This document shows, in pieces, positions 9,583 to 52,801 of a stretch of 54,392 bases of DNA (within the stretch, counting starts at the first letter, position 1; each line of letters begins with the position of its first letter). Under the pieces are notes generated by a model, which was given only the letters and a program-made list of their open reading frames with translations, searched no databases and was not told where the DNA came from. The stretch comes from a virus. The DNA lies in the IMG/VR virus record IMGVR_UViG_3300025767_000026, positions 1 through 54,392 of that record; one strand, 5' to 3'. Position numbers and translations under genes: made by a program.

Positions 9583-12500
9583 TTAGTTATCTATTTTATT
9601 GTCTTTTTTCTTTTGTTTTTCAACACGCAAAGAGTCTTGATAAGCAAACCACTCTTCCGTACTCATGCCTTTGAGCCTCTCATTCCTCCGTTTTATTTCT
9701 TGTTCTCTATTTGCAGCGCGGGTAGTCTTGGCTTTCTTAATACCGTCGGCTTTTCTTATAGCCTTAGCTTGAGCTTTTATAAGATCCTCCTCTTCAATTG
9801 TTGCTCCAACTTGCCAGTTCTTGTATCCCATTGATAGAGCAATTCTTTGATAAACGCTATTTCTTTCGTCGAAGGCTTCTGAAATGCTGGTTAGCTCATC
9901 GTAAGCTCGATCTAAAGGTATATTTGCTCCAGCTGCCGCGGCTTTGCCTAATACAGAGTATAAAGGGCTGGGCTGAAAACGACCGTCAATCATTAAATCA
10001 AGTCCTCTTTCTGCTATAACGTCTTTTTCAAATCTTTTGGTTCTTAATGCGCTATAGAATTTACTAGCTTTTGATCCAATTGGAGGGGATATGCTAAGGG
10101 CTGTAAACACAACTTTAGCATCATCCTGAAAAAATTCCTTCTTCTCTTGCTGGCGTATGTACTCAAGCACGGTATTTTTAAGAGCAGCCACAACCGCTCC
10201 GCCTATCCCGCTGCCTTTCAAGATAGTGTCTAAGCCGGAGTTAAGAGCTCTCGTATATATATCCTGTGCTTTAGCAGCCTCGATTTCTGCTTCTGTGTCT
10301 GTGAGGGTTTCCTCCTCGTCATCGTCAAAGCCGGGTATTAAAGCAAACAGTGCCCCTTGCAACGAAGAGAATATTGCGTTTTGAACAGCTAAATAATATA
10401 CGGCTCTAGAAATGTTCTCTTTAGGGTCCCCACGTCTGTATGCAAGGTCTAATATAGCCTTCTTGCCTCTTCTAGTATATTGCGCGGCGGTGTTCTGAAA
10501 TGTTAGAATAAGTCTACCCAACACACTAGCTTGCTCTTGAGAAATTAAAGAAGGATCTGATGATTGTTGAGTGCTATCAGATAGCCTAGAAAAATCTTTC
10601 CATGCTTTTTCTTCTGCTTCCTTATCCGTGTATTTTCTTCCTTTTTTGCCGTCTATTACAACAGTTTCGTTTTTATAAGTATTAACCCTGTTTCTATAAA
10701 AAGCTGCTCCACCGGAAGCAATAGCAAAACTATCCGCTATCTGCGTGGGCGTAAACCCTATCTTTAAAAGATATGCTAAAATAGCTTGCGGAGAATTTGA
10801 GCTGCTATTCGCTTGATTGGCTATTTCCGATTCAGACACATCCATTCTTAATCCGCCTCGCCTTTCTTTTAACTTAGGAGAATTAAAAATCATTACCCAG
10901 TCCTTCCAGTATTGTGGTTGATTTGCAAAAGCAGCTGCAGCCTTCAGTGGATTATTGTCACCCCAATTTATAAAGTTTATAGTAGATAAAAGCTGCAATA
11001 CAGCTGATCTGCGGTTAAAGAACATAATAGCGCCTGTAGATCTATTCACCCAGTTATTCCAAGCGTTAACCTGTTTAGAAGACCCGCTAGGGCGGTTTGT
11101 GCCGTTTTTCATTCTATACAGAGAATCTAACATAGCGTCGGCCCACTCATTACCTAGGTTTGCGCGCAACTTGTTCATATTTTCTGGTGAAAAAATAATA
11201 TCCGCGTTAGCTATAAATTCTTTTAAAAACTTCTGGCGACCTTTGCCCTCGGTTAAATTATAAATATCACTTAATAAAGTATCTGCTGTCCAGTATTTAC
11301 TAGGGGATGGCCATCCTTCTTTAAGATTAGTTACTCTTTTTAACTGCCCAACAAAACTAAGCAGCTCAGGGCTCCCCATAATTTCCAGGTTTAATTGCGC
11401 AATTTCTTTTTCTGATAATCCAGGAATGTCAATTCCATTTGATTTCCATAAATATACTCGCAAAGCGTGGTCGTATGTAAAGTCTGTTCCTTTTATTTTT
11501 TTCTTTAATAATTTAGCAATATCAGGATTTTCTTTAAGCAGCATGCTATACAACCTTTTTGCCGACTGTCTAGCCCTGTCAATATTAATAATACCAGCTA
11601 CATAAGGATCCATCAAATTTTCCTCAAAAAACTCGCGATGAGCATCGCCTTCCTTGCCGGATCCCATTAAGCTGTACAATAGGCCCATAAAGTCTTCAGC
11701 TCTAGGCGGAATAAATAAGTTAAATTTACCCTTCCCGCGGCCAGCCTGTCTAGCGCCTATATCAGAATATTTGTTTTGTCGCGGGTCATTAAACTTTTGC
11801 TCTATAATATAGTTAATACCTTCGTTAAGGTTTATGCTCGCTTTTGCAGCAGAAGACGGCGCTTCTTTTCTTTCCAGCACCACCTGAATGGCATCCTCGT
11901 TTTCGCCTATATATTCGGTGTAGTTCCACCCTAAATTATCCGCGAGCTTTTTGCCTAATACAGAATATAAACTAGCTCTGGAGATGCCATCTCCGTGGAA
12001 TGTTAATCTACCGTAATACGTTTGCGCTTTAAGATGATCGGCTACAGCGTTGCCAATACCGGCAAAAACTTTTAAAGGATTAACGCCATCCTCTTTAAAG
12101 CTTTCAGATAAAGCCATTTTACCCTGTCGTCCAGCGGCTACGTCATGAAACATTAATGAAAGAGTAGGTATATCGCTGTAATCTTCTTCGTCTGTTAATA
12201 AAATCTCTATTTCCGCTTTACCAACTTTAAAAGTGTCGGACGTGTAAGACGTAGGGTCCATGCTATCGCCATCAAAATTTGGGTCAAATTCTATATTATA
12301 GCTAGTGTTTAAGCTCGCTTTCCCCATTATGCTACCCTTCGCAAAATGAGTGTAGTAGCTTTTGAGGGCATTTTCGTGCCACGCGGCCGCAAATTCTACA
12401 TTTCGTATGCCGCTAAATTCAATGTTCTCAAAATTGCCATCGTAGCTTTTAAAAGTAACGTCTTTCATCGCAAAAGCAGTTAACGGATGATTATACCTCA

Positions 12501-15500
12501 TCCACGTATCGCTTCCTGGAGCCCATTCGGAGGGCATGTTCTGGCGGAATAGATGACCAATCTTTTTATCTAATGATTTTGCAATTAGTGCTCCCTTATA
12601 CCCGTCAAGCACATTGTTAAGCACGTCCTCGGTAACCTCTTGGTTATTTTTGTTTAGATAAGCCCCAATATAGTTAGTGACTACTATTGCAGGTAGAGCA
12701 TGCTCATATATCGCAAGGCGGCTTGCTCCAATGCCATCTTGTACATAAACTAGCCCGGCCATTCCGCGTAGAGGAGACTTAGTATGCGATGACATAGATG
12801 CAAAAATATTAGCAGCCCCCGTCGAAGCGGTTAGAGACGGATCAAGAGTATTAAAGTGATTTATTAATTTTTCTATAAAAGCCCTATCTCTTTTTGCAGA
12901 TTCATTAATTTCGTTAGCAGCGAGTTTCCCTTTTTTATTAATACGGTTATTATATTCAGGCCCTGAAACACCTTGTCTGCCTCGATTAAACCGCTTGCCG
13001 TTTTTGTGAATATTATACTTTATATTGTTGTCTTTATCTTTACCCTCAACTATTGTAAAGCCGTTTTTCGCTAATATCGGGAAGGCTTCATAGAATTCTA
13101 GGTTAGAATTAAAGATTCTGTAGGGCAAGCCGCTGTTAAAAGACTGAGACAAAAATATTACTAGTTCATCAACGGTTATAACTTCATCCTTAAGCAGGTT
13201 ATTTACCACCGCGATTACAGCCTGCTGATTGTCCCCGTTTTTTATCTTCTCTCCGTTTTTGTCGTAGACCCCTAAGTATTCGCTGTCCAATCCAAACGCG
13301 TTGGCGAATGATCTTCTTGCCGTAATAAAATTAAGCGTTTGTATAAGGTAGTCTCTATTATCTTCGGTTTCAATTGTTTTAGACTTCAATCTTTTTGATA
13401 AAATTTTAAGCCTATTTGCAAATTCATTAAAAAAGATTGTAGCCAACTCCCCCGCTTTTTCCTCTAAAATATTTTCTATATCATATTTTTTAATAATTTC
13501 TAGAATATCTTTTTGCTGAATTTTATTTTTGCTGAGGGGGAATTTCTGCTGTGTAAGCATGTCGTCAACAAAACTAGGCATGGTTTCAACAACAAACCCC
13601 GCCTGCGCTGGGTTTAAATTAATAGAGTACTTAAGATTAAATCCTGCTGGATCACGCTGCAATGCCTCTGTTAATACAATACCAAAGTTAGATACTTCGT
13701 TAACGCTAGGCAATCCCTGCTGGTTTAGAAACTCTTGTAGATTAACGAGGTCGCCATCGTCGTTGGTTTCATTAAGATAGTTTAGCAACATATCAGGAGC
13801 CATCCCTGAAGCAATCATTGCTGCAAATCTTTCTTTTAATTTGCTTTTTGTGGATTTACCGGCAGCAGGATTGTCCCAATATTTAACCCACTCTGCCTCT
13901 GTTATATCTTTTCTGTCAAATACACCTTTTCCTACGGCACCTAGTTCTTTTCCAGCTTCGTAAGTGCTTTCTCTAACCTGGCCAGAGCCGTCTTCTTTCA
14001 TCACTCGTACTTTCCAGTCGTCGATGCGCATGTTTATGAAGTTCTGAGGTATCAGATTATATAAGCCAAAAGAAGATCTTACAAATTTTGCAAAGGTATT
14101 TGTGTACGCAATAGCCACCACCTCTTTTTGTAAATATTTAGTTAGCTCTTTTTCTAAAAAAATGCTTAACTCTTCTCTGAATAATTTTTGCTCGCTTAAT
14201 GATAAATTATATGAATTAGACCCCTGGCGCTTCTCAAATTTAAACTTTGGCGAAGTAGCAACAAATTTAGATAAAGCCTCGTATACTTTCTCTAGCACGT
14301 CGTTAGAGATTAACGTAGGCATTAACTTTCTAGCTTTCTTTAAGAAGTCTACTTTAGCAGGTAGTCCCTCGGTCTTGCTTGCAGAGGAAGGCGTCACGTC
14401 ATCCATCTCAACAGTTGCAGCTTCGGCGTCCCCTAACTCCTGTAGAAACTCATTATCAATACCCAGGGCCTGTACAGCTCCTAGCGCTTTTCTATAAGCA
14501 AAGGCGTTGATCCAGCCATGTAGGTTGTCATTCTTTTCTTCAAAAGTTCCATCTTTAGCTGTGTTAAAATTTATAATATGATTAATTAACTCCGACTTAG
14601 CTATTATAAGATAGTATTCCATGTCAAAGCCCGGAAGTGTTTTAAATGCGGGAGCTCCGGTTTTAGGCTGCGGTCTATCTGCGTACACTTTCATCAATGC
14701 CATGTAAGCATCGCTTTGGTCAAGCACTTCCACTGCAGCTAAAGCTTTTCGCTCTTTGTTACCGCTTTCCCATGCCGATTTATGCTTTTCATATATAGCT
14801 TGTGTGCTTTCTTTCAAAGCTTTGTTACGAGTTACGTCGCTGACATTTATAGAAGCTTTATTATTGTCTTCTTCCTCTTCGGCTCTAAACTTCAGGTTAT
14901 TTCGTCGACTATAGCTAGCTATATATTGCAAAGCGTCTTGTACTGAGTTGATCCCGAACAAATAAGATTTATCACCAAACATAGCTCGGTTAAGGCTATT
15001 TACAAAGGCTTTTATATCATGCAGCCCTCCTAAAGCGCTCCCCTTTAAAGCCCCTATTCTAACAAAGTCGTTAAGCAACTGCATAACCTCGTCCGCATCT
15101 ATGTTGTTGGTGTCCTCGTATTTCCCAGCTGCTTTGGCTCTTTCTTGATAAGCATTAAGCCTGGCCTCAAAAACTTTATACTGATCTGCAGTAAGATTTC
15201 TTTTTGCATAATTTACAATACTGCTAATCATCCTTTTTGCGTCTCCTGCCAATTCGTCATTAACGAATATTTTATTTTGTCGACCGCGCTTATGCGCAAG
15301 CTCATGCAGCGGAGCAACAGAGGCAATAGCCGCCTCTATGTCGCTACTGAAAGCGATCGCCCCCATAACCGCACCATGGTTAACTATAATAAGTCCCGTG
15401 CCAGCAACTTCCTCAGCGCTGTTGTTTGCTCCCATCATCGCTCTATCCGCAAAATCTATGAGCGCCGCTTTTTCCTTATCGCTTAAGCTAGGGTTATCCT

Positions 15501-18453
15501 CAATATATTTTTCAATTTGTTCTAAAGCAGTAAAAGAGGAGTCTACCTCAACGACGCGGATGCCTTTGGTGTTTTTTATTGCATATAGATTAAGACGATA
15601 TGCAGCAAATGCTCTGGCCTGGGATGGAGTGAAAAAACTAGCGTCTCCTCTGACTTTTGCTTGCTCAGCACTAAGATCTTCTGTTTTTATATTAGCCCTG
15701 TCTAGCGCTTTTTTTTCTAGAGCCTTCCGATTTTCCGTAAGACTAGACTCCCGGTCGTTCATAACCTGGCTGTATTCGCCCTCCAGCCTTTCCATGGCTT
15801 TCTTGTTATAGCTCGACCCCGCGTCCTCATTAGCAGCTAAACTCTCTGCGTCTTGGCGAATCTTTTTTGCTTTTCTATTAGCCTCTAAAAGCGCTCCAAT
15901 TTGATCAGGTGTATATTCAGATAAATCTGCAACACTTAGGCTAGTTAAATCCGCGGCTTTTTTAATAAGCTGCCTTTTTCTATCTTTAAGTTTTTGTTTT
16001 TCAGAAGAAGGTGTTGCTGGGTCGCTAAGGTCCCCTTGTATAGACGTAAGCTCGTTCTTTAATTTAGTTAATTCGCTAGCGTCTCCTATAGATTTAAACT
16101 CGTCATGTATAACACTATGCAAGTTACTAGCCATACCTCCTCCAGATAGATACATACTAGAGATAGCTACGTTCGCAACAAAATCTAGATCATACCCATC
16201 AAATATATTTTTGTCTTCACCGAGCACGGTCATGTCGACTAGGTTCTGGGCAACTAATGTTAGCCCCTCCTCCGCTTGTTCCATGGCCACAGCTCCCACT
16301 CCCCCAATGCCAATACCTAAGCTTCTAGCTGCAATCCTGCCAGCGTGTTCCCCTAGTTGTTGTTTAAAAAAAGTAGAGCCGTAAGAGCGCGACATCTTAC
16401 CAATGTTTTTTAATAAATACGTAGCGCCAAGCTTTTCTGCTATTGCAGCAGTGCCACCGTACATTAATCCAGTAAACCCTATTTGCAATTCGCTATAATC
16501 TAACGCGTCCCGGTGGTATTCCAGTTCTTTATTTATCCGGGCTTTTTCAAGCGGGCTAGTTGCCGCGCTAAGCTGCTCCTCTAAAGCACTAATCATCATA
16601 GGGGCATTTTTGCGCCCAATTTCCATTTCTGCTATTTTACTACCGCCTTCCATTGCAAAAAATGCTCCAGCCTGTAAGTTGGCAAATCTTGTAGCAGCTA
16701 CTCTAGCTGCGGCACGTGTGGCAGCAACTTGGGCGGCAGCAGTGGCGCCGGGAACCGATAGCCCTGTTCTCAATAAGCCAATTCCTCCGGAGGCGAGGGT
16801 TGTCGCGGCTGTAACCAGCAAAGAAGGCGAGTTTTGTATGGTAGCGTCGACCACCCACTCGGCAAGAGTCGATTTATCCCCAACTGTAAGAGGCATAGGC
16901 ATCTCATTGCTAATCTGATTTTGCAGCCGCTCGTTGTAATTGACAGCTTGCTTGTTTACTTCGGTAACATAGTCGTAAGCGTCGCTACCCTCAGGCGACC
17001 CCAGGTAATTTGCCATAACAACAAACTGGGCGGCTTTTGTGGCAAACATAGCTACAGGAGCCATTATCCCCGCTTCCAGCATTGCACCCAGTTGATTGGC
17101 TTTGCTGTAGTCTTTAGAGAAAGTTTCATACTCAATATTGCTTAACTCTATCTGCTCTATTTTTTTTCTTCGGACTACATCTCTATATTCGAGCTCTCGG
17201 CCCATTTGGGTTAGCTCAAGTTGGTCTTTTTTTAATCCTTCAAGGTGTAGCTCTTCCAGCTCCTGGGCTTCGATAATAAGTGAATTGTAAGCCTCTATAG
17301 TAGCAGGGTCAGAGTTTGAGTCAACATCTCCCAAGCGATCGAAGCCATCTGCTATATTTTTTGATGAAGCATTGTATTTTCCAACACGGGTTTCATATGC
17401 AGATTTTTTTTCAAGGTAGGGAGAGATTTCATTGTCAAGCTCTGTAGATTCAGTGATGACATTATCAATGTCCCTTTGGCGCCCCGCGAGCCATCTTGGG
17501 TCGTCGGTAATATTAACAGTAGGAGGAACATAGGTTCTCCCATCTACAGTGGTAATTTTATATAGCTCTTCTCCATATATAGCTTCATAATCGCGCTTAT
17601 CCTGTTTTTGTTGGGTTTTAATTCGGGCGCTTGATCCATGGGTACCGTCTATATCCGCTATATTATCTTGGGCCTCTTGAAGTTCGGATGATGAGGATCT
17701 CCTTGCCTCTAGCTGCTGGGCTCTTGATTTGTGTTCGTTAAGAACACCGGATATTAGTTTAGAGTCCGCGAGGTCTGTGTTGAATTTTCCTGTTTCTTTA
17801 TAATTATTATAATCGTCTAAATCTTTTTGGTTGCCGAATAGCGGGAAAGTTTCATATCTATTATCGACAGGGATCTTAGCAAGCTCATATTTCTTTGAAC
17901 TTTCGGCGGCCAAGCCGGCTTTTTCATAGCTAGCCCCTAATTTTTTCCCTTCAAAATATTTGTCGGCAATATCTTTCTGAACTTCTGGGTCCTGTATGGA
18001 GACTTGCCGGCTTGCCGCATGGACTCTTTGATTAAGCGACAGAGGCTGTACTTCATCGCTTCCATTAGAAGCTATATTAGCAGCAAAAGACGTGTCTTCG
18101 ACTTGTACGGGTCTCCCCATCAACGCGGCATAATCATCAAAGTTGTCTGGATGAACGCCCTTTCTTTTTTTAGAGCGGGTTGTTTGGGGAGCGACCCACT
18201 CTCTGCCTGCAGAATTATTTAAAAAGTCATCTTCGTAGATGGTTTCGTTTTTATAAGTAATAAATCTAATTGGCTTCAATGCAGCTGCGTTGGGAACCTT
18301 TGGTGATTCGCTGTCTTCAAATAAAGCATTAGCGCTTTTTATCCACTCCTCAGGAGTTATGCCATCACTTTCTGCTAGGGTCAAAATCTCTTTGCCAGAT
18401 AATTTATCGCCATCAGCCAATGTATATAGTGCATTTGGATCTATCTCGTTCAT
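9583..18453 (-). CDS. Giant internal virion/ejection protein (LPD38-type, gp16-like position)
   Basis: A 2956-residue protein, the largest gene here, in the position of T7 gp16. The N-terminal ~450 residues are charged and helical. Several glycine/alanine-rich hydrophobic stretches (about 480-740) could insert in membranes. An HELAH zinc-protease motif lies at 1050-1054, with E1122 a possible third ligand. Residues about 2460-2710 match my memory of the LPD38 region of large polyvalent phage proteins (NRRSAVLQLLSTINFINW, then FQNTAAQYTRRGKKAILDL). KASxN-type motifs recur at about 1199, 1608, 2045 and 2204. I infer a packaged protein ejected into the cell to help DNA entry. Internal enzyme activity is unproven. 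Confidence 0.85.
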   Translation of the reverse strand: MNEIDPNALYTLADGDKLSGKEILTLAESDGITPEEWIKSANALFEDSESPKVPNAAALKPIRFITYKNETIYEDDFLNNSAGREWVAPQTTRSKKRKGVHPDNFDDYAALMGRPVQVEDTSFAANIASNGSDEVQPLSLNQRVHAASRQVSIQDPEVQKDIADKYFEGKKLGASYEKAGLAAESSKKYELAKIPVDNRYETFPLFGNQKDLDDYNNYKETGKFNTDLADSKLISGVLNEHKSRAQQLEARRSSSSELQEAQDNIADIDGTHGSSARIKTQQKQDKRDYEAIYGEELYKITTVDGRTYVPPTVNITDDPRWLAGRQRDIDNVITESTELDNEISPYLEKKSAYETRVGKYNASSKNIADGFDRLGDVDSNSDPATIEAYNSLIIEAQELEELHLEGLKKDQLELTQMGRELEYRDVVRRKKIEQIELSNIEYETFSKDYSKANQLGAMLEAGIMAPVAMFATKAAQFVVMANYLGSPEGSDAYDYVTEVNKQAVNYNERLQNQISNEMPMPLTVGDKSTLAEWVVDATIQNSPSLLVTAATTLASGGIGLLRTGLSVPGATAAAQVAATRAAARVAATRFANLQAGAFFAMEGGSKIAEMEIGRKNAPMMISALEEQLSAATSPLEKARINKELEYHRDALDYSELQIGFTGLMYGGTAAIAEKLGATYLLKNIGKMSRSYGSTFFKQQLGEHAGRIAARSLGIGIGGVGAVAMEQAEEGLTLVAQNLVDMTVLGEDKNIFDGYDLDFVANVAISSMYLSGGGMASNLHSVIHDEFKSIGDASELTKLKNELTSIQGDLSDPATPSSEKQKLKDRKRQLIKKAADLTSLSVADLSEYTPDQIGALLEANRKAKKIRQDAESLAANEDAGSSYNKKAMERLEGEYSQVMNDRESSLTENRKALEKKALDRANIKTEDLSAEQAKVRGDASFFTPSQARAFAAYRLNLYAIKNTKGIRVVEVDSSFTALEQIEKYIEDNPSLSDKEKAALIDFADRAMMGANNSAEEVAGTGLIIVNHGAVMGAIAFSSDIEAAIASVAPLHELAHKRGRQNKIFVNDELAGDAKRMISSIVNYAKRNLTADQYKVFEARLNAYQERAKAAGKYEDTNNIDADEVMQLLNDFVRIGALKGSALGGLHDIKAFVNSLNRAMFGDKSYLFGINSVQDALQYIASYSRRNNLKFRAEEEEDNNKASINVSDVTRNKALKESTQAIYEKHKSAWESGNKERKALAAVEVLDQSDAYMALMKVYADRPQPKTGAPAFKTLPGFDMEYYLIIAKSELINHIINFNTAKDGTFEEKNDNLHGWINAFAYRKALGAVQALGIDNEFLQELGDAEAATVEMDDVTPSSASKTEGLPAKVDFLKKARKLMPTLISNDVLEKVYEALSKFVATSPKFKFEKRQGSNSYNLSLSEQKLFREELSIFLEKELTKYLQKEVVAIAYTNTFAKFVRSSFGLYNLIPQNFINMRIDDWKVRVMKEDGSGQVRESTYEAGKELGAVGKGVFDRKDITEAEWVKYWDNPAAGKSTKSKLKERFAAMIASGMAPDMLLNYLNETNDDGDLVNLQEFLNQQGLPSVNEVSNFGIVLTEALQRDPAGFNLKYSINLNPAQAGFVVETMPSFVDDMLTQQKFPLSKNKIQQKDILEIIKKYDIENILEEKAGELATIFFNEFANRLKILSKRLKSKTIETEDNRDYLIQTLNFITARRSFANAFGLDSEYLGVYDKNGEKIKNGDNQQAVIAVVNNLLKDEVITVDELVIFLSQSFNSGLPYRIFNSNLEFYEAFPILAKNGFTIVEGKDKDNNIKYNIHKNGKRFNRGRQGVSGPEYNNRINKKGKLAANEINESAKRDRAFIEKLINHFNTLDPSLTASTGAANIFASMSSHTKSPLRGMAGLVYVQDGIGASRLAIYEHALPAIVVTNYIGAYLNKNNQEVTEDVLNNVLDGYKGALIAKSLDKKIGHLFRQNMPSEWAPGSDTWMRYNHPLTAFAMKDVTFKSYDGNFENIEFSGIRNVEFAAAWHENALKSYYTHFAKGSIMGKASLNTSYNIEFDPNFDGDSMDPTSYTSDTFKVGKAEIEILLTDEEDYSDIPTLSLMFHDVAAGRQGKMALSESFKEDGVNPLKVFAGIGNAVADHLKAQTYYGRLTFHGDGISRASLYSVLGKKLADNLGWNYTEYIGENEDAIQVVLERKEAPSSAAKASINLNEGINYIIEQKFNDPRQNKYSDIGARQAGRGKGKFNLFIPPRAEDFMGLLYSLMGSGKEGDAHREFFEENLMDPYVAGIINIDRARQSAKRLYSMLLKENPDIAKLLKKKIKGTDFTYDHALRVYLWKSNGIDIPGLSEKEIAQLNLEIMGSPELLSFVGQLKRVTNLKEGWPSPSKYWTADTLLSDIYNLTEGKGRQKFLKEFIANADIIFSPENMNKLRANLGNEWADAMLDSLYRMKNGTNRPSGSSKQVNAWNNWVNRSTGAIMFFNRRSAVLQLLSTINFINWGDNNPLKAAAAFANQPQYWKDWVMIFNSPKLKERRGGLRMDVSESEIANQANSSSNSPQAILAYLLKIGFTPTQIADSFAIASGGAAFYRNRVNTYKNETVVIDGKKGRKYTDKEAEEKAWKDFSRLSDSTQQSSDPSLISQEQASVLGRLILTFQNTAAQYTRRGKKAILDLAYRRGDPKENISRAVYYLAVQNAIFSSLQGALFALIPGFDDDEEETLTDTEAEIEAAKAQDIYTRALNSGLDTILKGSGIGGAVVAALKNTVLEYIRQQEKKEFFQDDAKVVFTALSISPPIGSKASKFYSALRTKRFEKDVIAERGLDLMIDGRFQPSPLYSVLGKAAAAGANIPLDRAYDELTSISEAFDERNSVYQRIALSMGYKNWQVGATIEEEDLIKAQAKAIRKADGIKKAKTTRAANREQEIKRRNERLKGMSTEEWFAYQDSLRVEKQKKKDNKIDN

Positions 18454-18480: not shown

Positions 18481-19722
18481 TTAGTTTGCGGGAACTATAT
18501 AGTCCTCAGCCGCTGAGGGGGTCATTGTAGAAAGATCAGTGCCTTCTGGGAACTTATATTTTTTAGTGTTGTTTTCGCCAACCGCGGTGATTGCGCCGTC
18601 CTCTTCTTTGCGAAAGGTATACATATCCGCTGCTCCATCATAATAAGCAGTAAATTCGGTTGTTTCCCCAACTGGCAGGGTGGCGACGCGCCCAGATATT
18701 ATTCCATTTTTCTTAGCTGATCTTTTACTGGTGATATTGTCCGGATACCCTTCTTCTCCCCAATTTGTAGTCGCTTCCGTTCCTGGCTTGTTGTTGGCTT
18801 TAACGCCTTTCTTTTCGTATCGACTCGCTCCTTCCGCGGAAGATTCATCTAAGCCTGCCATGTACGATTGTACAATGCGATCCTCAAGCTCCTTGTTGTT
18901 ATATAGGTGAGCGTCGGGCACAATAGGTCCCCCTATGTTTAAAAAATCATCAGTAGCCATAGAAAGTAAAGACTCTCGGCCTCCCTTTTTAAGGTTATTG
19001 CGCAATGTGCGTTCTGCATCCCGTCGTTTGAACGCGTCCATAGGTTTGCCCGTGCGCTTGGATTCCTCATAGATGGCATTGTTCTGCGTTTCAAATGTTC
19101 CGTAAGTAGTATAGTCTTTGTTAAAGTACTCTGGCAAATCATTTAATGAGGTTGAAACTCCATTGGCGCCTTTAAAGTATACATTGCCGTTGGGGCCAAT
19201 TTCCATTTCCATGGAGTCGGTCAATGCATCGGTGAGGAGTTCTGTTTTATCTGGGTCATTTCCAGAGGAAATCAAGCCATTGTTAAAATCAGGCAATTCT
19301 TTTTTGCGCTCCTTAAACTTGTCAAGATCAGCGGATAAGGTTCTCATATATTGATTTACATCTGCCATTTTTGCAATAGCTTCCGTGTGTGCTGAACTTC
19401 CCGCAGGAAACTTTGAAGCAGTCCTCGCCGCGTCCGCATATTCCATCCGTCTATCTGCCATTGTAGCAGTTATATAATCCCTGTTGACAGGAGGAACTTT
19501 GTCAAAATCCAAACCTCCAGGTAGCCCTGCCATGTAGCTGGATACCTTTGCTTCGGTAGCAGCAGCTTTTGCCATACCGGGGCTTATTCCCATGCCACCA
19601 GACGCTTCTCTAGTCTTGCTACCAAAAGTCTGCCCGCGAGACTGATACATCGCCTGGGCCCCTGTCACCAACCAGTTCTCCCCGGACGCGTAATTAGTTG
19701 CTGTTGCTTTATTTTTTGCCAT
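18481..19722 (-). CDS. Internal virion protein candidate (gp15-like position)
   Basis: A 413-residue hydrophilic protein without recognised domains. Helical charged stretches (DADLDKFKERKKELPDF-like) are followed by a C-terminal part with small beta segments. It lies between the gp14-like and gp16-like genes, the place of T7 gp15, though it is shorter than gp15 (747 residues). The N-terminus (AKNKATATNYASGENW) is Ala/Ser/Thr-rich, as in packaged ejection proteins. The assignment is by gene order only. Confidence 0.6.
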   Translation of the reverse strand: MAKNKATATNYASGENWLVTGAQAMYQSRGQTFGSKTREASGGMGISPGMAKAAATEAKVSSYMAGLPGGLDFDKVPPVNRDYITATMADRRMEYADAARTASKFPAGSSAHTEAIAKMADVNQYMRTLSADLDKFKERKKELPDFNNGLISSGNDPDKTELLTDALTDSMEMEIGPNGNVYFKGANGVSTSLNDLPEYFNKDYTTYGTFETQNNAIYEESKRTGKPMDAFKRRDAERTLRNNLKKGGRESLLSMATDDFLNIGGPIVPDAHLYNNKELEDRIVQSYMAGLDESSAEGASRYEKKGVKANNKPGTEATTNWGEEGYPDNITSKRSAKKNGIISGRVATLPVGETTEFTAYYDGAADMYTFRKEEDGAITAVGENNTKKYKFPEGTDLSTMTPSAAEDYIVPAN

Positions 19723-19744: not shown

Positions 19745-20389
19745 TCAGACCCCCCCGTTTATTATTGATCCAAACGCGCTCTCGGCAACTGAAGGAAGCC
19801 CCATAACTACACTGCCCCCAGCCTTAGCTAAATCAGTAACGCCGTTCACCATTGCGTCAGTAGCGTCAGCTCTTGCTTGATCAGCAGCGGCGCTTCTTGC
19901 TTGGGCTTGCCCTAGTAATGTTTTAGTTCTACCCTCTTCTTTGTCTTGTACCACTTGCTCGCCTTGCGCAACCATCAATTGGTTTTGGCCAGCCTGTTGA
20001 GCCGATAGCATTTGATTTCTATTTTCTTGCTGTCCAATGCTTGCGGACGCGCTTTGTAAGTTTTGATTTTGTTGGTTTGACATTGCTTGCGCTAAAGCCG
20101 CAATACCAGACCCGCCAGCCGCTCCCTGCATTGCTCCCATAGTATTAGCCATGCCCTGCTGTTGCTGCTGCGCCATAAAATCTGCTTGCTGAGTATTTAC
20201 TGTTAAATCTTCAGCTGTATTTTGCAGACCAGAATATACGTTATTAAACTGCATGCCCTCATATGCCGCTTGGCGACTTGCTAATTGGGCACTTGCATCT
20301 CGCTGCTCTTGCCTCCGCGCACCACCTCCAATTGAGGCTCCAACTATACTGCCTATTGCGCCGATTCCTTGTGATAATGGATCTGCCAT
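19745..20389 (-). CDS. Internal virion protein, gp14-like
   Basis: A 214-residue protein with an N-terminal glycine-rich hydrophobic segment (QGIGAIGSIVGASIGGG), then long Gln/Ala-rich helices (MAQQQQQGMANTMGAMQ and a coiled-coil-like region), and a hydrophobic C-terminus. Size and architecture match T7 gp14 (196 residues), which is ejected into the outer membrane as the first part of the DNA translocation channel. It is the first gene of the three-gene ejection block and is preceded by a promoter-like element. Confidence 0.7.
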   Translation of the reverse strand: MADPLSQGIGAIGSIVGASIGGGARRQEQRDASAQLASRQAAYEGMQFNNVYSGLQNTAEDLTVNTQQADFMAQQQQQGMANTMGAMQGAAGGSGIAALAQAMSNQQNQNLQSASASIGQQENRNQMLSAQQAGQNQLMVAQGEQVVQDKEEGRTKTLLGQAQARSAAADQARADATDAMVNGVTDLAKAGGSVVMGLPSVAESAFGSIINGGV

Positions 20390-21721: not shown

Positions 21722-24700
21722 TTAGTTGTTCGGATCGTTTTTAACTGTAACTGTAAATGTTGTATTGCCTGTATAAGGAGCAATGCTCGATGGCTGGCCA
21801 ATGCCCTGCGCCGCAAATTGTTTTAAATCTAGGGTGCCAACTTGTCCGTTGTTATCCCATGTGTCATTTAGCCCCCTAATATAGTTATAATATATATTTT
21901 CTTTATCTAAGAAAGTTGTTACCGCCCCATCCTGCTGGTCAGTTTGTATGAGCGGAGATATCCACCCGCCGTCTCCCTCGTAAGATAGTGTTTTAAAGTT
22001 CTTAATCTTATTAGGCAAGTCATTAAATATAAACTGGACACTGGATTTAGCTGTGGCTCCTTCGTAAAAAGTATTGCGCAGCTGATTGTCGTGGGACCAA
22101 AGCATGCCATTAGACATCGTGTAGTAATCGCTGTTTAGAGATATGCCAAACTCAGGAATAAAGGACTTACGTGTTGGCCACCCATCCATAGCTTCTTTAA
22201 AAGAAACGGTCTGGCTATTTAAAGTTAAGTTGTAGCAATCAGAATAAATATCGTAATTTCCAATAACAGTAGTGGCTTCTTTTAAGTTGTCATAAAAGAA
22301 ATCGTTCATACCTTTGCTGGATATTTCCGTGAGCCCATCCATGGATAAGCGCAGAACAGAAGATCTTTTCTTGTCAGAGAAATAAGCCCTAAAACCAAAT
22401 GAAGCAAAGCTTTCCGGGTTTTTAGATATACCGTATTCCCCTGCAAATGGCACTGCTTGGCCTAGTACATTGTTGGTCGATGTCACATTGGCATTCCCGT
22501 CAGCGTTGTATAACGCATCTTTATTTGCCAATATGCGGATAATCTTATCTTCGCATAGGGCCACTAGGTTAGTGTCTCGGGTATGGAGCTTTTGTATACT
22601 GCCATACATTGGGTTTAAGTCTTTTGTTATTTTTTCAGCTTGTACAAATTGGTTTAAGCTGTTCAATCCTGATGTAGAATTATAAAGGCCCGAATAGATA
22701 AGCCCAGAGGGTCTTCTTTCTTCCCCATAAGGCTCTTCTAGCACTGTGGATACTTTAGTACCCTTATCTATAAACGGAGCGTTAAAATCGTCTCTAACGC
22801 GATTTGATTCTACGCCATTGCCAAATGCAAAACAGTTATGCCAGGTTAAAGTCTTAAGTGTCTGGTAATCTGCAATTGGATAAGCATCGCTCGCCTCGTA
22901 GTATAGGTCTAAGTCTGCTAATTCTTTTGGTTCGGTTTCAAAAATACCAGGGTCATTACTTGGGTAATCTGAGGCCTCATCCTCACCTAGTATAATTACA
23001 TTAATTTGGTTGGGCCCACCGGGAAAGTTAGGGTTAACCGTCTGAACCAAGCCTGTTTCAAATAAAATATATATCCTTTCATATACATTGTTGTTCCCAA
23101 CCGCCACGGTATTGGCCTCGTCAATTGTGTAAACAGTTCCTAAGTGATTGGCAAATTTTATTTTTGTTCCTTTTGTACCAAGTTTCCGCCAAGCCCTAAG
23201 ATTAATACCATACTGAACTTTTCTTTCGAGCACAAGATCATAGGGCTTGCTGTTAGGGTTGTCGTAATGCGCCCAAGTAGGCATCCACCCTCCATCGGAT
23301 GTAATCTTTAGCCCGCCATTATAGTGCTCTTTTCCATATAGTCTTTTAGGGGAGTGACCTCCACCCCAGATCTGCACATATAGGTTTTCGTTGCCGTAAT
23401 ACCCGTCGTCAGCGTGGATGGTTACCTCGCCGTTAATCACAACAGGAGCTCCAAATGACTTGAAATTCATTGCATTCGTAGCTACTAACGGCCCAGTTGC
23501 AAATAAGTTATCTAACAATGTTGCGTTCTGCTCAATATTGACAAAGAATTTGCCTTGGAATTTAGCTTTATTGTCTTCAGCCTGATATGCATAAATTTCA
23601 ACAAAATTTCCAGCGGGGGCCACAAGAGTTTGGTCGACATTGTATAAAAAATTAACATCATCCTCAAACGCGCGGTCAACAATTATTCGGGCTGATTCGT
23701 CCGCTGCGGAAGCGTTCCAGTCTATAGTGACTATCTTATAATATTCTGATTTTGATGTGCCGTCGGTAAACGCGATATACCTGCCTACTAGTAAAGCAAA
23801 CTTTGTTTCGTCTGTTATACCTTGAGCCCCGTCTTCGCGCCCTATTAGAAATGTTTTTGACCCAGGGGTGGGGGTTTTACCAGCTGACCATGAAGGTTGC
23901 TCAGTGTATGAGCCATAAGCGTTAACGAAAGAAAGTGTTGCCGAATGAACTAAGGCTCTTACTTGAGTAAGCTCTAAAGGAGCCTCGTTTTTAATAGAAA
24001 GCACTTTGTATTTATTATCCGTGGAAGTAACTGGCGCGGTAGAGCCTTGTCCTTTCTTTAATATAATATAGGATTCTTCTGTTATTTTATTTCGTTCGGA
24101 CGATGGGAAAGACACCCAAGCGGTAACCCCGTCTTCTGACTTATAAACCCTATCTGCCGCAAGGTTATAATACTGATCTGAAGAATCTTTTACAAAATAT
24201 TTATAGTGAGAAAAACCGCCGGGAGGAGGATTATCGCTTTGTACTTGTATTTTATTTGGCGTGCTAGACTTTGCTTTGTCTACTTTAACGGAGGCTTTAT
24301 CCGATGTAAATACTGGTGTTTCTCTTCCGTAAGCGTCTTTAAATACCACACCTATTTGATAGTCTCTGTCCGATTTAACAGATTTTGAAGGAATAGTTAT
24401 GTCTATAGTGCCCTCTGAGCTGACAGAAGAGCTTAATGCAATTTTTTCGCTTATTGTATAATTTTGTAGATAATTACCGTACACTATTCTATTACCCACC
24501 AACTCCTGAGCCTTAGCTAGCCGAGGCACATTATCCCAGGGTCTTAGCAGCTGATTAGACTGTACAACTTTATATATTAGCTTACTAGTTATTTTAAATC
24601 CCTCCCAAACCCCTGTCTCTGTTAAATCTGCAGGATCAAAGTCGTCGACTATATATATAGTGCTATTATTTGTTTCTTTATATAGGACCTCTATTTTTTT

Positions 24701-25861
24701 GACATCTACAGGAGGGGTGTCAAATGCATCTAAAGTAATTTGCTGGACTGCATTAGCCATGCCTTTGTTGTATCCCTTCGATGCATCATAATCAAACCCC
24801 GTAGCCAAGAAAGCTACCTCTGTAAAAGGCGAAAAGCAAGAAAACTCATTATTTTCGTATTTCCATCTATAGCCAAACCGCGGGAATTTACCCTCAAACG
24901 GAGGAGAGTCTTGCTGAAGTTTACAGGTATACGTATACGTGTCGCTATCTGGCAACAATGGCGAGCTAGAAATAACCTTAACCCCAATTTGCAGGGGGTT
25001 GGTTACGGCAATTACCTGTAGCGTTACGATATATACGTCACTTTCGGTATCCGTCTCCAGGGCTATCCCCTCTAATTTTAAAAAATCACCCACTACATAA
25101 GCTGCTCCTGAATTTAAAGCAAATCCATAGATTGCTGTGCCGGCCGCAATAGCAGGGCGTAGCGAGTCATTGTTTAACTGCGTGGCTTCGGTAAAGTTAT
25201 AAGTGACAGAAGTGTTTACGTTGCTCACCCCGTTAATAAGCCTATCGCTATTGGCTAAAGCCATAGAGGGAGCGGATAACGGTGATTTTTTAATTACTGT
25301 TACATCACTTTCAATGAAATCTCTACCCTTATACGTGCTGTGAGTGGTGAAGTTTGCTGTGCTAAAAACACCTTTGGTTACCTCCAGCTTTTTAGGCTCA
25401 GAGTTGTCGTCTGTCCAGAACAAGTAATTGTCAAGTATATTTACCCCTGTAATAAGCTTGTTTACGGAAAAATTTAAAATGTTTTGAGTGTCAACGAGTA
25501 CAGGACGTACTACCTTGTATGTGTCTTCGTATTCTAAAATACAATCCACAGTGGAAGAAGTAACAAACCAATATAGTTTGTCGTTAATGTCGTCTTTAAC
25601 CCCTCCAATACACTTGGCATCGAGCGGTAAGCCGTAGTAGTTTGCTGTTTCGGAATCTAAAGCCCAATCTGTAGAGGGTATCCCCTTTTTTTCTTTGCGA
25701 ACTTGATTGCCAAGAATATTTTGAATAGCACCCACGTCGCTACCCTCAGACGAACCTACTTGTATGTTTAATGCGTCTCTATATTCACCACTAGGTAATA
25801 ATCTCTCGTCAAGGTCTTTATTCATTCGACCCCTAACAAATAACCTTTTTAATTCTGGCAT
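21722..25861 (-). CDS. Tail nozzle / stabilization-type protein (gp12-like)
   Basis: A 1379-residue protein. The N-terminal signature, RMNKDLDERLLPSGEYRDAL followed by NIQVGSSEGSDVGAIQNILGN, is the one I associate with the large tail nozzle or 'stabilization' proteins of Bacteroidota podophages and P22 gp10-like proteins. The rest is beta-rich with many aromatic and glycine turns, compatible with a beta-propeller plus inserted Ig-like domains. T7 gp12 is about 800 residues, so this is enlarged. It directly follows the two connector-like genes, as expected for the protein that closes the tail tube. Confidence 0.78.
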   Translation of the reverse strand: MPELKRLFVRGRMNKDLDERLLPSGEYRDALNIQVGSSEGSDVGAIQNILGNQVRKEKKGIPSTDWALDSETANYYGLPLDAKCIGGVKDDINDKLYWFVTSSTVDCILEYEDTYKVVRPVLVDTQNILNFSVNKLITGVNILDNYLFWTDDNSEPKKLEVTKGVFSTANFTTHSTYKGRDFIESDVTVIKKSPLSAPSMALANSDRLINGVSNVNTSVTYNFTEATQLNNDSLRPAIAAGTAIYGFALNSGAAYVVGDFLKLEGIALETDTESDVYIVTLQVIAVTNPLQIGVKVISSSPLLPDSDTYTYTCKLQQDSPPFEGKFPRFGYRWKYENNEFSCFSPFTEVAFLATGFDYDASKGYNKGMANAVQQITLDAFDTPPVDVKKIEVLYKETNNSTIYIVDDFDPADLTETGVWEGFKITSKLIYKVVQSNQLLRPWDNVPRLAKAQELVGNRIVYGNYLQNYTISEKIALSSSVSSEGTIDITIPSKSVKSDRDYQIGVVFKDAYGRETPVFTSDKASVKVDKAKSSTPNKIQVQSDNPPPGGFSHYKYFVKDSSDQYYNLAADRVYKSEDGVTAWVSFPSSERNKITEESYIILKKGQGSTAPVTSTDNKYKVLSIKNEAPLELTQVRALVHSATLSFVNAYGSYTEQPSWSAGKTPTPGSKTFLIGREDGAQGITDETKFALLVGRYIAFTDGTSKSEYYKIVTIDWNASAADESARIIVDRAFEDDVNFLYNVDQTLVAPAGNFVEIYAYQAEDNKAKFQGKFFVNIEQNATLLDNLFATGPLVATNAMNFKSFGAPVVINGEVTIHADDGYYGNENLYVQIWGGGHSPKRLYGKEHYNGGLKITSDGGWMPTWAHYDNPNSKPYDLVLERKVQYGINLRAWRKLGTKGTKIKFANHLGTVYTIDEANTVAVGNNNVYERIYILFETGLVQTVNPNFPGGPNQINVIILGEDEASDYPSNDPGIFETEPKELADLDLYYEASDAYPIADYQTLKTLTWHNCFAFGNGVESNRVRDDFNAPFIDKGTKVSTVLEEPYGEERRPSGLIYSGLYNSTSGLNSLNQFVQAEKITKDLNPMYGSIQKLHTRDTNLVALCEDKIIRILANKDALYNADGNANVTSTNNVLGQAVPFAGEYGISKNPESFASFGFRAYFSDKKRSSVLRLSMDGLTEISSKGMNDFFYDNLKEATTVIGNYDIYSDCYNLTLNSQTVSFKEAMDGWPTRKSFIPEFGISLNSDYYTMSNGMLWSHDNQLRNTFYEGATAKSSVQFIFNDLPNKIKNFKTLSYEGDGGWISPLIQTDQQDGAVTTFLDKENIYYNYIRGLNDTWDNNGQVGTLDLKQFAAQGIGQPSSIAPYTGNTTFTVTVKNDPNN

Positions 25862-50992: not shown

Positions 50993-51246
50993 TCCACTAT
51001 TACAATATCACCTGCTTTTAACACATAATAAAGTTTTTCGTTAAATTGAATCCCATGGCCTGCGTGTCGGTCATAATGAACGGTATCCCCATCTTTCAAT
51101 CCTTCCACAAGATTGCCTGCTGAGATTACCTTTCCCTTTAGGTACCTAATGTCACTGTTCTGTTGTTCAGTGAATTCTAAGCCACCAACCATTTTTGGCT
51201 CTTCCTTAATCTTGTCTACGACTATATAATAGTTAATTGCTTTCAT
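50989..51246 (-). CDS. groES: Co-chaperonin GroES
   Basis: An 85-residue Cpn10. It opens [13 protein letters not shown], has a mobile-loop-like KMVGGLEFTEQQ, then GKVISAGN, DGDTVHYDRH and LKAGDIVIVE, in register with bacterial GroES (about 95 residues). The mobile loop would carry the GGLEF contact to GroEL. It starts inside the 3' end of groEL (14-base overlap), so it is translated from the same message, downstream of groEL, the reverse of the bacterial groES-groEL order. A phage GroES can enlarge or retune the folding cage for capsid or tail proteins. Confidence 0.85.
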   Translation of the reverse strand: MKAINYYIVVDKIKEEPKMVGGLEFTEQQNSDIRYLKGKVISAGNLVEGLKDGDTVHYDRHAGHGIQFNEKLYYVLKAGDIVIVE

Positions 51247-52801
51247 TGATCCTCATATTATTAATTACACAATCAGCAGACAATATAGTGGTTGCAACAC
51301 TAACCGCATTTTTCAGAGCAGTCTTCGTTACCAAGACAGGGTCAATAATACCGGCTTTAACCATATCGGCAGGCTTACCTGTGATTACGTTAATACCTTT
51401 GTTTTTGCCATAAACGAAATCATCAGGAACCGTAAGCCCCGCGTTTTCAAGTATGATATCAAAAGGAGCTTGAATGGCTTCTTGTAAAACAACTTCGCCT
51501 AAAGATTCAGGCTTTAAAGCAATAGCAGCGTTTAATAAAGCAACACCTCCACCGGCAACAATACCTTCCTTCAATGCAGCCTTAACCGCATAGATGGCAT
51601 CTTCCACCCGATCCTTCTTTTCTTTTAATTCAATCTTTGAGTAACCACCTACCTTGATAACCGCAACTGAACCATTAAGCATGGCCAAGCGTTGTTCTAT
51701 CTTCTTTTTAATGTATGGGTTTGTCTCATTCTTAATCTTCTCCTCTACCATAGCCACACGCTCGTTTAGGGCTTCACCAAGGTCTCCAATCTGCAGAACA
51801 GTATACTTATCATCTGTGATTGATTTAACGGCTCTACCGAGGACCAATGGACTTATTAGGTCAAGGTCATCCCCTAGCTCCTCATTCATAACTTGGGCGC
51901 CCGTCAAAAATGCCAGGTCTTCGACCGTGTCACGACGGGTTGGGCCGAAGCCCGGGGGATCAATAATGTTTACTTTAATATTACCTTTAATCTTATTAGC
52001 AATAAGGGTAGCCAGCGGCTGCTGTTCTACCGATGCTACTATAAGAAGTGATTCACCTGCTTTTATCACGTGTTCTAAGACACTTTGTATCTTTCTGATA
52101 TTAGGTATAGGAGAGTCAACAATAAGGATGTACGGCTTGTCTAAGACAGCAATACCCTTGTCCTTGTCTGTGGCCAAATGGATTGACTTTAAACCAGACT
52201 CGACCTGGGCACCGTCAACAAACTCAACGTAAGTTTCTTCAGTGTCTGATTCCTCCATTAGCACAACCCCGTCTTTGCCAACCTTAGAATAGGCTTCGCC
52301 TATCTTTTTGCCGAGCTCAGCATCGTTGTTGCAACTAATAGTAGCGACCGAGTCAAGCATCTTACCGTTAACCGGTATGCTTTGCTTGTCTAGTAGCTTT
52401 AATACTTTATTCGCTGCGGAGTGGATACCTTCTTTAACATGTCTTAAATTATGATCCTTAAGGTATTTGTCTGCCTCAGTAAGTAGTGAGTGCGCGAGGA
52501 CGGTAGCTGTAGTAGTACCGTCACCCGCTTCTCTCACTGTATTCTTCGCGGCTTCCTTGATTAACGTAGCGCCAATGTTTTCAACAGGGTCGAACAAGAC
52601 TACGGATTCCGCCACCGTTACACCGTCTTTTGTTATGACCGGTCTACCCATGGCATCCTCATAAATCACGCATTGTCCTGAAGCACCTAACGTGGACTTC
52701 ACTGCGTTGGTTAATTTTGTAACACCGCTAATGATGTTTTTTCTGGCGCTGTCGCCAAATGACAGATCCTTTACGATCTGACTAGGGTTATTGAATTCCA
52801 T
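51233..52801 (-). CDS. groEL: Chaperonin GroEL
   Basis: A 522-residue Cpn60. ATP-site landmarks are intact: D59 in [16 protein letters not shown] at 93-98, and [12 protein letters not shown] in the second equatorial half. The apical region is recognisable ([29 protein letters not shown]). The C-terminus ends NMRINESN and lacks the Gly-Gly-Met tail that lines the E. coli cavity. It is slightly shorter than E. coli GroEL (548). It lies in the late arm between structural genes, so it probably folds virion proteins. The start follows an A/T-only leader. Confidence 0.96.

Follow-up and report, generated by a model that had tools for sequence, protein, structure and literature searches.

A giant protein closing the late structural operon of an environmental phage carries a predicted zincin metallopeptidase domain

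The zincin-like metallopeptidases (MPTases) of phage polyvalent proteins (Iyer et al. 2017, PMC5512222; PF18818) are found in giant proteins that are encoded in late operons and carry varied companion domains. Their core comprises three strands, an N-terminal helix and two C-terminal helices (PMC5512222), with an HExxH motif after the strands and a Glu on a later helix, and Iyer et al. tied these domains to anthrax lethal factor (PMC5512222). Two further giant proteins with an HExxH motif are DdrB of phage P1 and the virion RNA polymerase (vRNAP, gp50) of phage N4. The N4 protein is ejected, has an RNA polymerase domain and closes a portal-MCP-ejection operon in which two smaller ejection proteins precede it. 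In the crass phage PhicrAss001, the cargo proteins gp45-gp50 are present in the virion, in capsid and tail (PMC10172136); gp47, gp49 and gp50 are RNA-polymerase-associated. Among cultured flavophages, gp21 of vB_FspP_elemoA-F (Elemovirus; elemoA below) is annotated as a 'structural protein', and phi38:1 gp101 and phi19:3 gp129 are annotated virion structural proteins. Here we describe a giant protein that shares features with each of these systems.

The window, by which we mean the whole stretch of DNA analysed, is the virus record IMGVR_UViG_3300025767_000026, 54,392 bases in length, and its host is probably a marine member of the Bacteroidota. A PHROG search identified a single minus-strand block of virion genes, among them those for the terminase, the portal and a major capsid-type protein. 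Genes for replication and nucleotide metabolism lie on the plus strand, with ribonucleotide reductase and thymidylate synthase among them. At 51233-52801 (minus strand) a 522-aa phage GroEL is encoded; GroEL and GroES genes were also found in elemoA and in the phage ctfjg026. As in the polyvalent class, the giant gene lies among late virion genes: it closes the late structural/cargo operon and is preceded by the genes for terminase, portal, MCP, muzzle and two smaller proteins. Downstream of the muzzle gene the operon encodes proteins of 315, 111, 214, 413 and 2956 aa, and the same order is seen in the reading frames of a relative, L002 (108, 206, 418 and 2950 aa).

The muzzle-type tail protein (1379 aa; 21722..25861, minus strand) scores 33.6 bits with Pfam crAss_MUZ and 32.3 bits with crAss_MUZ_C, against a cut-off of 27, and also matches a PHROG virion structural protein. 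Its matches above cut-off to the crassvirus muzzle models PF25731 and PF25729 link the podovirus-like group of the window to crass-type tails. The window thus resembles PhicrAss001 in its muzzle, and differs from it in that no RNA-polymerase-associated function like that of gp47, gp49 and gp50 was seen. Directly upstream of the giant ORF lies the gene of the 413-aa protein (18481..19722, minus strand), which by position and size is a candidate second cargo/ejection protein and has counterparts at the same place in L002 (the 418-aa frame) and elemoA (450 aa). The Gly/Ala/Gln-rich protein of 214 aa (19745..20389, minus strand) is a candidate small ejection protein by position, size and composition, and resembles T7 gp14 in position and look. 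Neither protein had a family match in the PHROG and Pfam searches.

The giant ORF occupies 9583..18453 and about 16% of the window, starts with ATG and encodes 2956 aa. A first-pass annotation made from the sequence had described it as a single gene covering about a sixth of the window, which is correct; it lies on the minus strand, a point the annotation left unstated. The protein would consist of four parts. An N-terminal helical 'ejection core' (residues about 228-1011; 15421..17772, minus strand) is homologous to phi38:1 gp101, phi19:3 gp129 and elemoA gp21. It is followed by a zincin metallopeptidase domain (residues about 960-1160; 14974..15576, minus strand) predicted from an AlphaFold2 model. 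A variable cargo region (residues about 1161-2226; 11776..14973, minus strand) includes a window-specific domain at residues about 2008-2178 (11920..12432, minus strand). The C-terminal domain (residues 2227-2900; 9754..11775, minus strand) is the most conserved part in alignment A2, where its family signature is AFANQPQYWKDWVM.

The libraries we searched do not contain this family, although proteins of its general kind are already known. The giant protein had zero matches to Pfam up to E 10; its only PHROGs match (0.34) was of unknown function, and nothing below E 0.24 was found among PDB sequences. Whole-protein tblastn against 50,697 phage records returned zero matches. A whole-protein search for relatives in metagenomic viruses found three. 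When the conserved C-terminal domain served as the query, 402 related IMG/VR loci were found, the best 80 of which were fetched, together with eight contigs from genome bins of bacteria and archaea. Counts of homologues out of 68 below refer to the non-redundant, full-length set, the window included. Five homologues (L084, L087, L088, L089 and L091) were binned as Alphaproteobacteria, Woesearchaeota, Ilumatobacteraceae and Aliivibrio; since the cultured relatives infect Bacteroidota, these are probably phage contigs put in wrong-host bins.

The motif HELAH is found at residues 1050-1054 (15292..15306, minus strand) and a Glu at residue 1122 (15088..15090, minus strand), exactly where the first-pass annotation had placed them. 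The predicted roles are two zinc ligands and the catalytic Glu for HELAH and the third zinc ligand for E1122, on the helix after the HELAH helix. From composition, the chance of one HExxH in the giant protein is about 0.02. Exactly one HExxH is present in 67 of the 68 homologues, against an expected total of 0.67 over all 68, and the control motifs HDxxH, HQxxH, HKxxH, HAxxH and HSxxH occur 0 to 4 times each across the same set. The sole exception, L080, reads HGALH at the matching place (about residues 951-955 of its giant ORF), having naturally lost the catalytic Glu but kept the pair of His. In A3, a 65-sequence alignment of the zincin region with a mean column identity of 14%, four columns alone are invariant, namely H1050, E1051, H1054 and E1122; its members were picked by and aligned on HExxH, which favours the motif columns. 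The evidence free of this selection is the count over the 68 homologues, in which HExxH was counted unconditionally, and the downstream Glu. A realigned set with L045 first (A5) has the same four invariant columns and no others, and the distance from HExxH to Glu ranges across the family from 51 to 112 residues. The conservation of two His and a Glu among homologues, on which the first-pass annotation had made its proposal depend, was therefore found.

The AlphaFold2 model of window residues 925-1205 (pLDDT 77.8, pTM 0.76) has strands at 966-970, 1013-1015 and 1021-1025, HELAH in a helix at 1047-1059 and E1122 in a helix at 1120-1132. A shorter model of the L045 domain (pLDDT 80.9, pTM 0.77) has the same order of strands and helices, and in both models this order matches that of the polyvalent-protein MPTases (PMC5512222), including a Glu on the second C-terminal helix, here the invariant E1122. 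The window zincin did not match the Pfam MPTase-PolyVal profile PF18818 at E up to 10; it belongs to a sequence family of its own, which none of the searched libraries found. Members of A3 weakly match scattered Pfam zincin families: M91 at 4.8e-5 in L045, just under cut-off, M78 in four members, and ATLF, M12B, Mx and M57 once each. Foldseek searches with the two models, twice against PDB and once against BFVD, gave nothing significant (best E about 1-2 in PDB and 0.15 in BFVD). Among the matches listed in the second PDB search, lethal-factor chains had the top TM-scores to the query (0.31-0.35) at E about 3, a resemblance of the model that we take as a hint only. The structural expectation of the first-pass annotation was thus borne out in part: the predicted HExxH and E1122 lie in two helices beside three strands, and no solved structure matched significantly. 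Its proposal of a zinc peptidase inside a giant polyvalent-type protein is supported by the four invariant residues and the predicted topology, and on these grounds the reading of a mid-protein zincin zinc protease is sound. Direct kinship of the domain to N4 vRNAP C1 or P1 DdrB was rejected, hhalign scoring no better than with HExxH-keeping shuffles.

The window terminase points to Elemovirus, to the Cellulophaga phages phi38:1, phi19:3 and phi46:3, and to Tenacibaculum and Maribacter phages; the window phage is related to the cultured flavophages of Elemovirus, Pervagoviridae and Pachyviridae. The operons of elemoA, phi38:1 and phi19:3 have the gene order of the window and end in a giant gene with a structural annotation. 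A profile of the window family scored 93 bits with elemoA gp21, 85 with phi38:1 gp101 and 65 with phi19:3 gp129 in hmmsearch, where reversed sequences reached at most 13 bits. The elemoA gp21 also carries HEIFH at residue 1543. By hhalign, A3 aligned with the gp21 zincin along 145 columns, HExxH and the helix of the Glu among them, with a probability of 93.9 and a score of 53. No control, whether reversed, shuffled or shuffled with HEIFH kept, exceeded 7% or a score of 25, and none of the remaining gp21 segments scored. By these comparisons the predicted zincin of the window is homologous to that of Elemovirus gp21, a region found in 68 records of cultured Flavobacterium phages. The two proteins share their operon place, N-terminal region and zincin; gp21 is longer (3694 aa) and bears a DUF3293 domain, and a profile search detected no homology in it to the conserved C-terminal domain of the window.

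In contrast, phi38:1 gp101 (1691 aa) and phi19:3 gp129 (1871 aa), which have a window-like operon place and a homologous N-terminal core, are shorter than the window protein and have no HExxH. This suggests that the zincin domain is dispensable for the core ejection role, and that the zincin and what follows it were gained or lost between lineages that share the core. The phage ctfjg026 (L095, MW202828) has a terminase 63.5% identical to that of the window, yet its giant protein had zero tblastn matches. This ORF of 3859 aa contains HEFGH twice, at residues 1615 and 2500, and the second HEFGH region matches A3 with an hhalign probability of 81%. We claim no N-terminal homology for it, the profile score (19 bits) being near the decoy level of 13.

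Behind the zincin, the cargo region varies within the family. The window protein combines the predicted zincin with unassigned domains. A HAD-like DFDDT motif is present within the cargo region of 46 of the 68 homologues, and a zeta-toxin/P-loop kinase (zeta toxin or AAA_33 match) in 6 of 38 scanned relatives; the window has neither. In L001-L003 a HAD-like FDFDDTLA domain occupies residues 2010-2200, where the window carries another domain. The same comparison disposes of an RNA polymerase reading of that segment: FDGD near residue 2093 resembles NADFDGD, but its place is taken in L001-L003 by FDFDDTLA, and no RNA polymerase domain such as that of N4 vRNAP was recognised in the window protein. 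A copy of the window domain at 2008-2178 is found directly behind the zincin of L036 (residues 1007-1207; blastp E 7e-6). This one unnamed domain, unmatched in the phage collection, thus stands at different places in the giant proteins of the window and of L036, as though it had been transferred as a unit. The pattern of differences in the cargo region suggests swapped modules. A second conserved motif, EHxxP, lies at window residues 1917-1921 (about 12691-12705, minus strand) and occurs in 47 of the 68 relatives; in alignment A4 its E and its H are both close to invariant (at least 90%). Two split genes were not counted as evidence for separable parts: a putative fission between core and zincin in L037, where the break coincides with a homopolymeric A tract and resembles a frameshift, and the split of L007, which lies inside its HAD-like domain.

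The label of ejection protein, given in the first-pass annotation, stands as a prediction and gains from the operon position and from homologues in cultured phages that are annotated as virion structural proteins. Counting the giant protein among the ejected cargo proteins appears well founded because of the muzzle-led gene order, the similar N4 order and the cargo proteins of PhicrAss001. Two other features ascribed to the protein were not recovered. For the LPD38-type region, the Pfam LPD38 profile (PF18857) was unmatched, and hhalign to six LPD38 proteins taken from bacterial genomes gave E 0.07 and a probability of 0.8%, the best local alignment spanning about 60-100 columns and falling short of significance. 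As to membrane-prone segments, none in the window protein exceeds a hydropathy of 1.6 or attains a usual transmembrane threshold: the highest 21-residue value, 1.52, is located inside the zincin strands, and 57 of the 68 family members likewise have no segment above 1.6. Membrane insertion may instead be carried out by the smaller partner proteins.

The giant protein is most likely a virion cargo/ejection protein whose predicted zinc protease would act upon delivery or later, with its own chain or host proteins as substrates. Cleavage of itself or of host targets, raised in the first-pass annotation, is accordingly a plausible role. We regard as probable a modular protein that would be carried in the virion and reach the cell through the tail, before or together with the DNA, and whose predicted zincin would bind zinc, be proteolytically active and chiefly cut its own chain. 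Cleavage at or after delivery would release the cargo modules from the ejection core. We rank the uses of the protease in the order self-cleavage at or after delivery, host targets, maturation.

The zincin could instead chiefly cleave proteins of the host, such as those of its defences or its surface, making the giant protein an injected effector; this is possible but doubtful. Such a role accords with the hypervariability of the domain outside its catalytic residues, its absence from phi38:1 and phi19:3, the varying HAD-like and zeta-toxin-like content of the cargo region of the same protein, and the naming of host targeting among the possibilities by Iyer et al. (PMC5512222). However, the zincin is in every case flanked by the N-terminal core on one side and the cargo region on the other, a position that suits cis-processing equally well. 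A bolder version, in which these would be widespread, fast-evolving injected phage proteases directed against host proteins, drifting freely save for four catalytic residues and accompanied by swappable HAD-phosphatase-like and zeta-toxin-like-kinase domains, is offered as speculation.

Processing of virion proteins during head assembly seems improbable. The window proteins that were scanned include no other recognisable prohead protease, and P1 DdrB is processed before packaging (PMC5512222); on the other hand, the N4 vRNAP enters the virion uncut although it too has an HExxH domain (PMC5512222), and a maturation role is made less likely because phi38:1 and phi19:3 share the structural module and have this gene without a zincin. 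We give little credence to a non-catalytic zinc-binding or purely structural domain. The HGALH of L080, in which the catalytic Glu is replaced and the two His are kept, and the Foldseek result would fit it, but the general-base Glu is kept in all other homologues and metal binding alone needs no such Glu. That the HExxH arose by chance in an unrelated helix has a negligible probability: nothing speaks for it except that motif scarcity is easily overrated in a long protein, and it is refuted by the conservation of the motif across homologues, far above expectation and with only four invariant columns, so that the HExxH of this family is not a chance occurrence.

With its predicted zincin, a giant phage gene that had carried no annotation becomes an enzyme open to testing. 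The family is present in at least 402 IMG/VR viral contigs, yet the window protein is unrecognised by Pfam, PHROGs and PDB sequences. Cultured relatives carry the same predicted zincin (Elemovirus, on Flavobacterium sp. BAL314) or are naturally without it (phi38:1 and phi19:3). The role of protease domains in ejected giant proteins, a question standing since Iyer et al. 2017 and through the N4 vRNAP structure work, thereby becomes directly testable.
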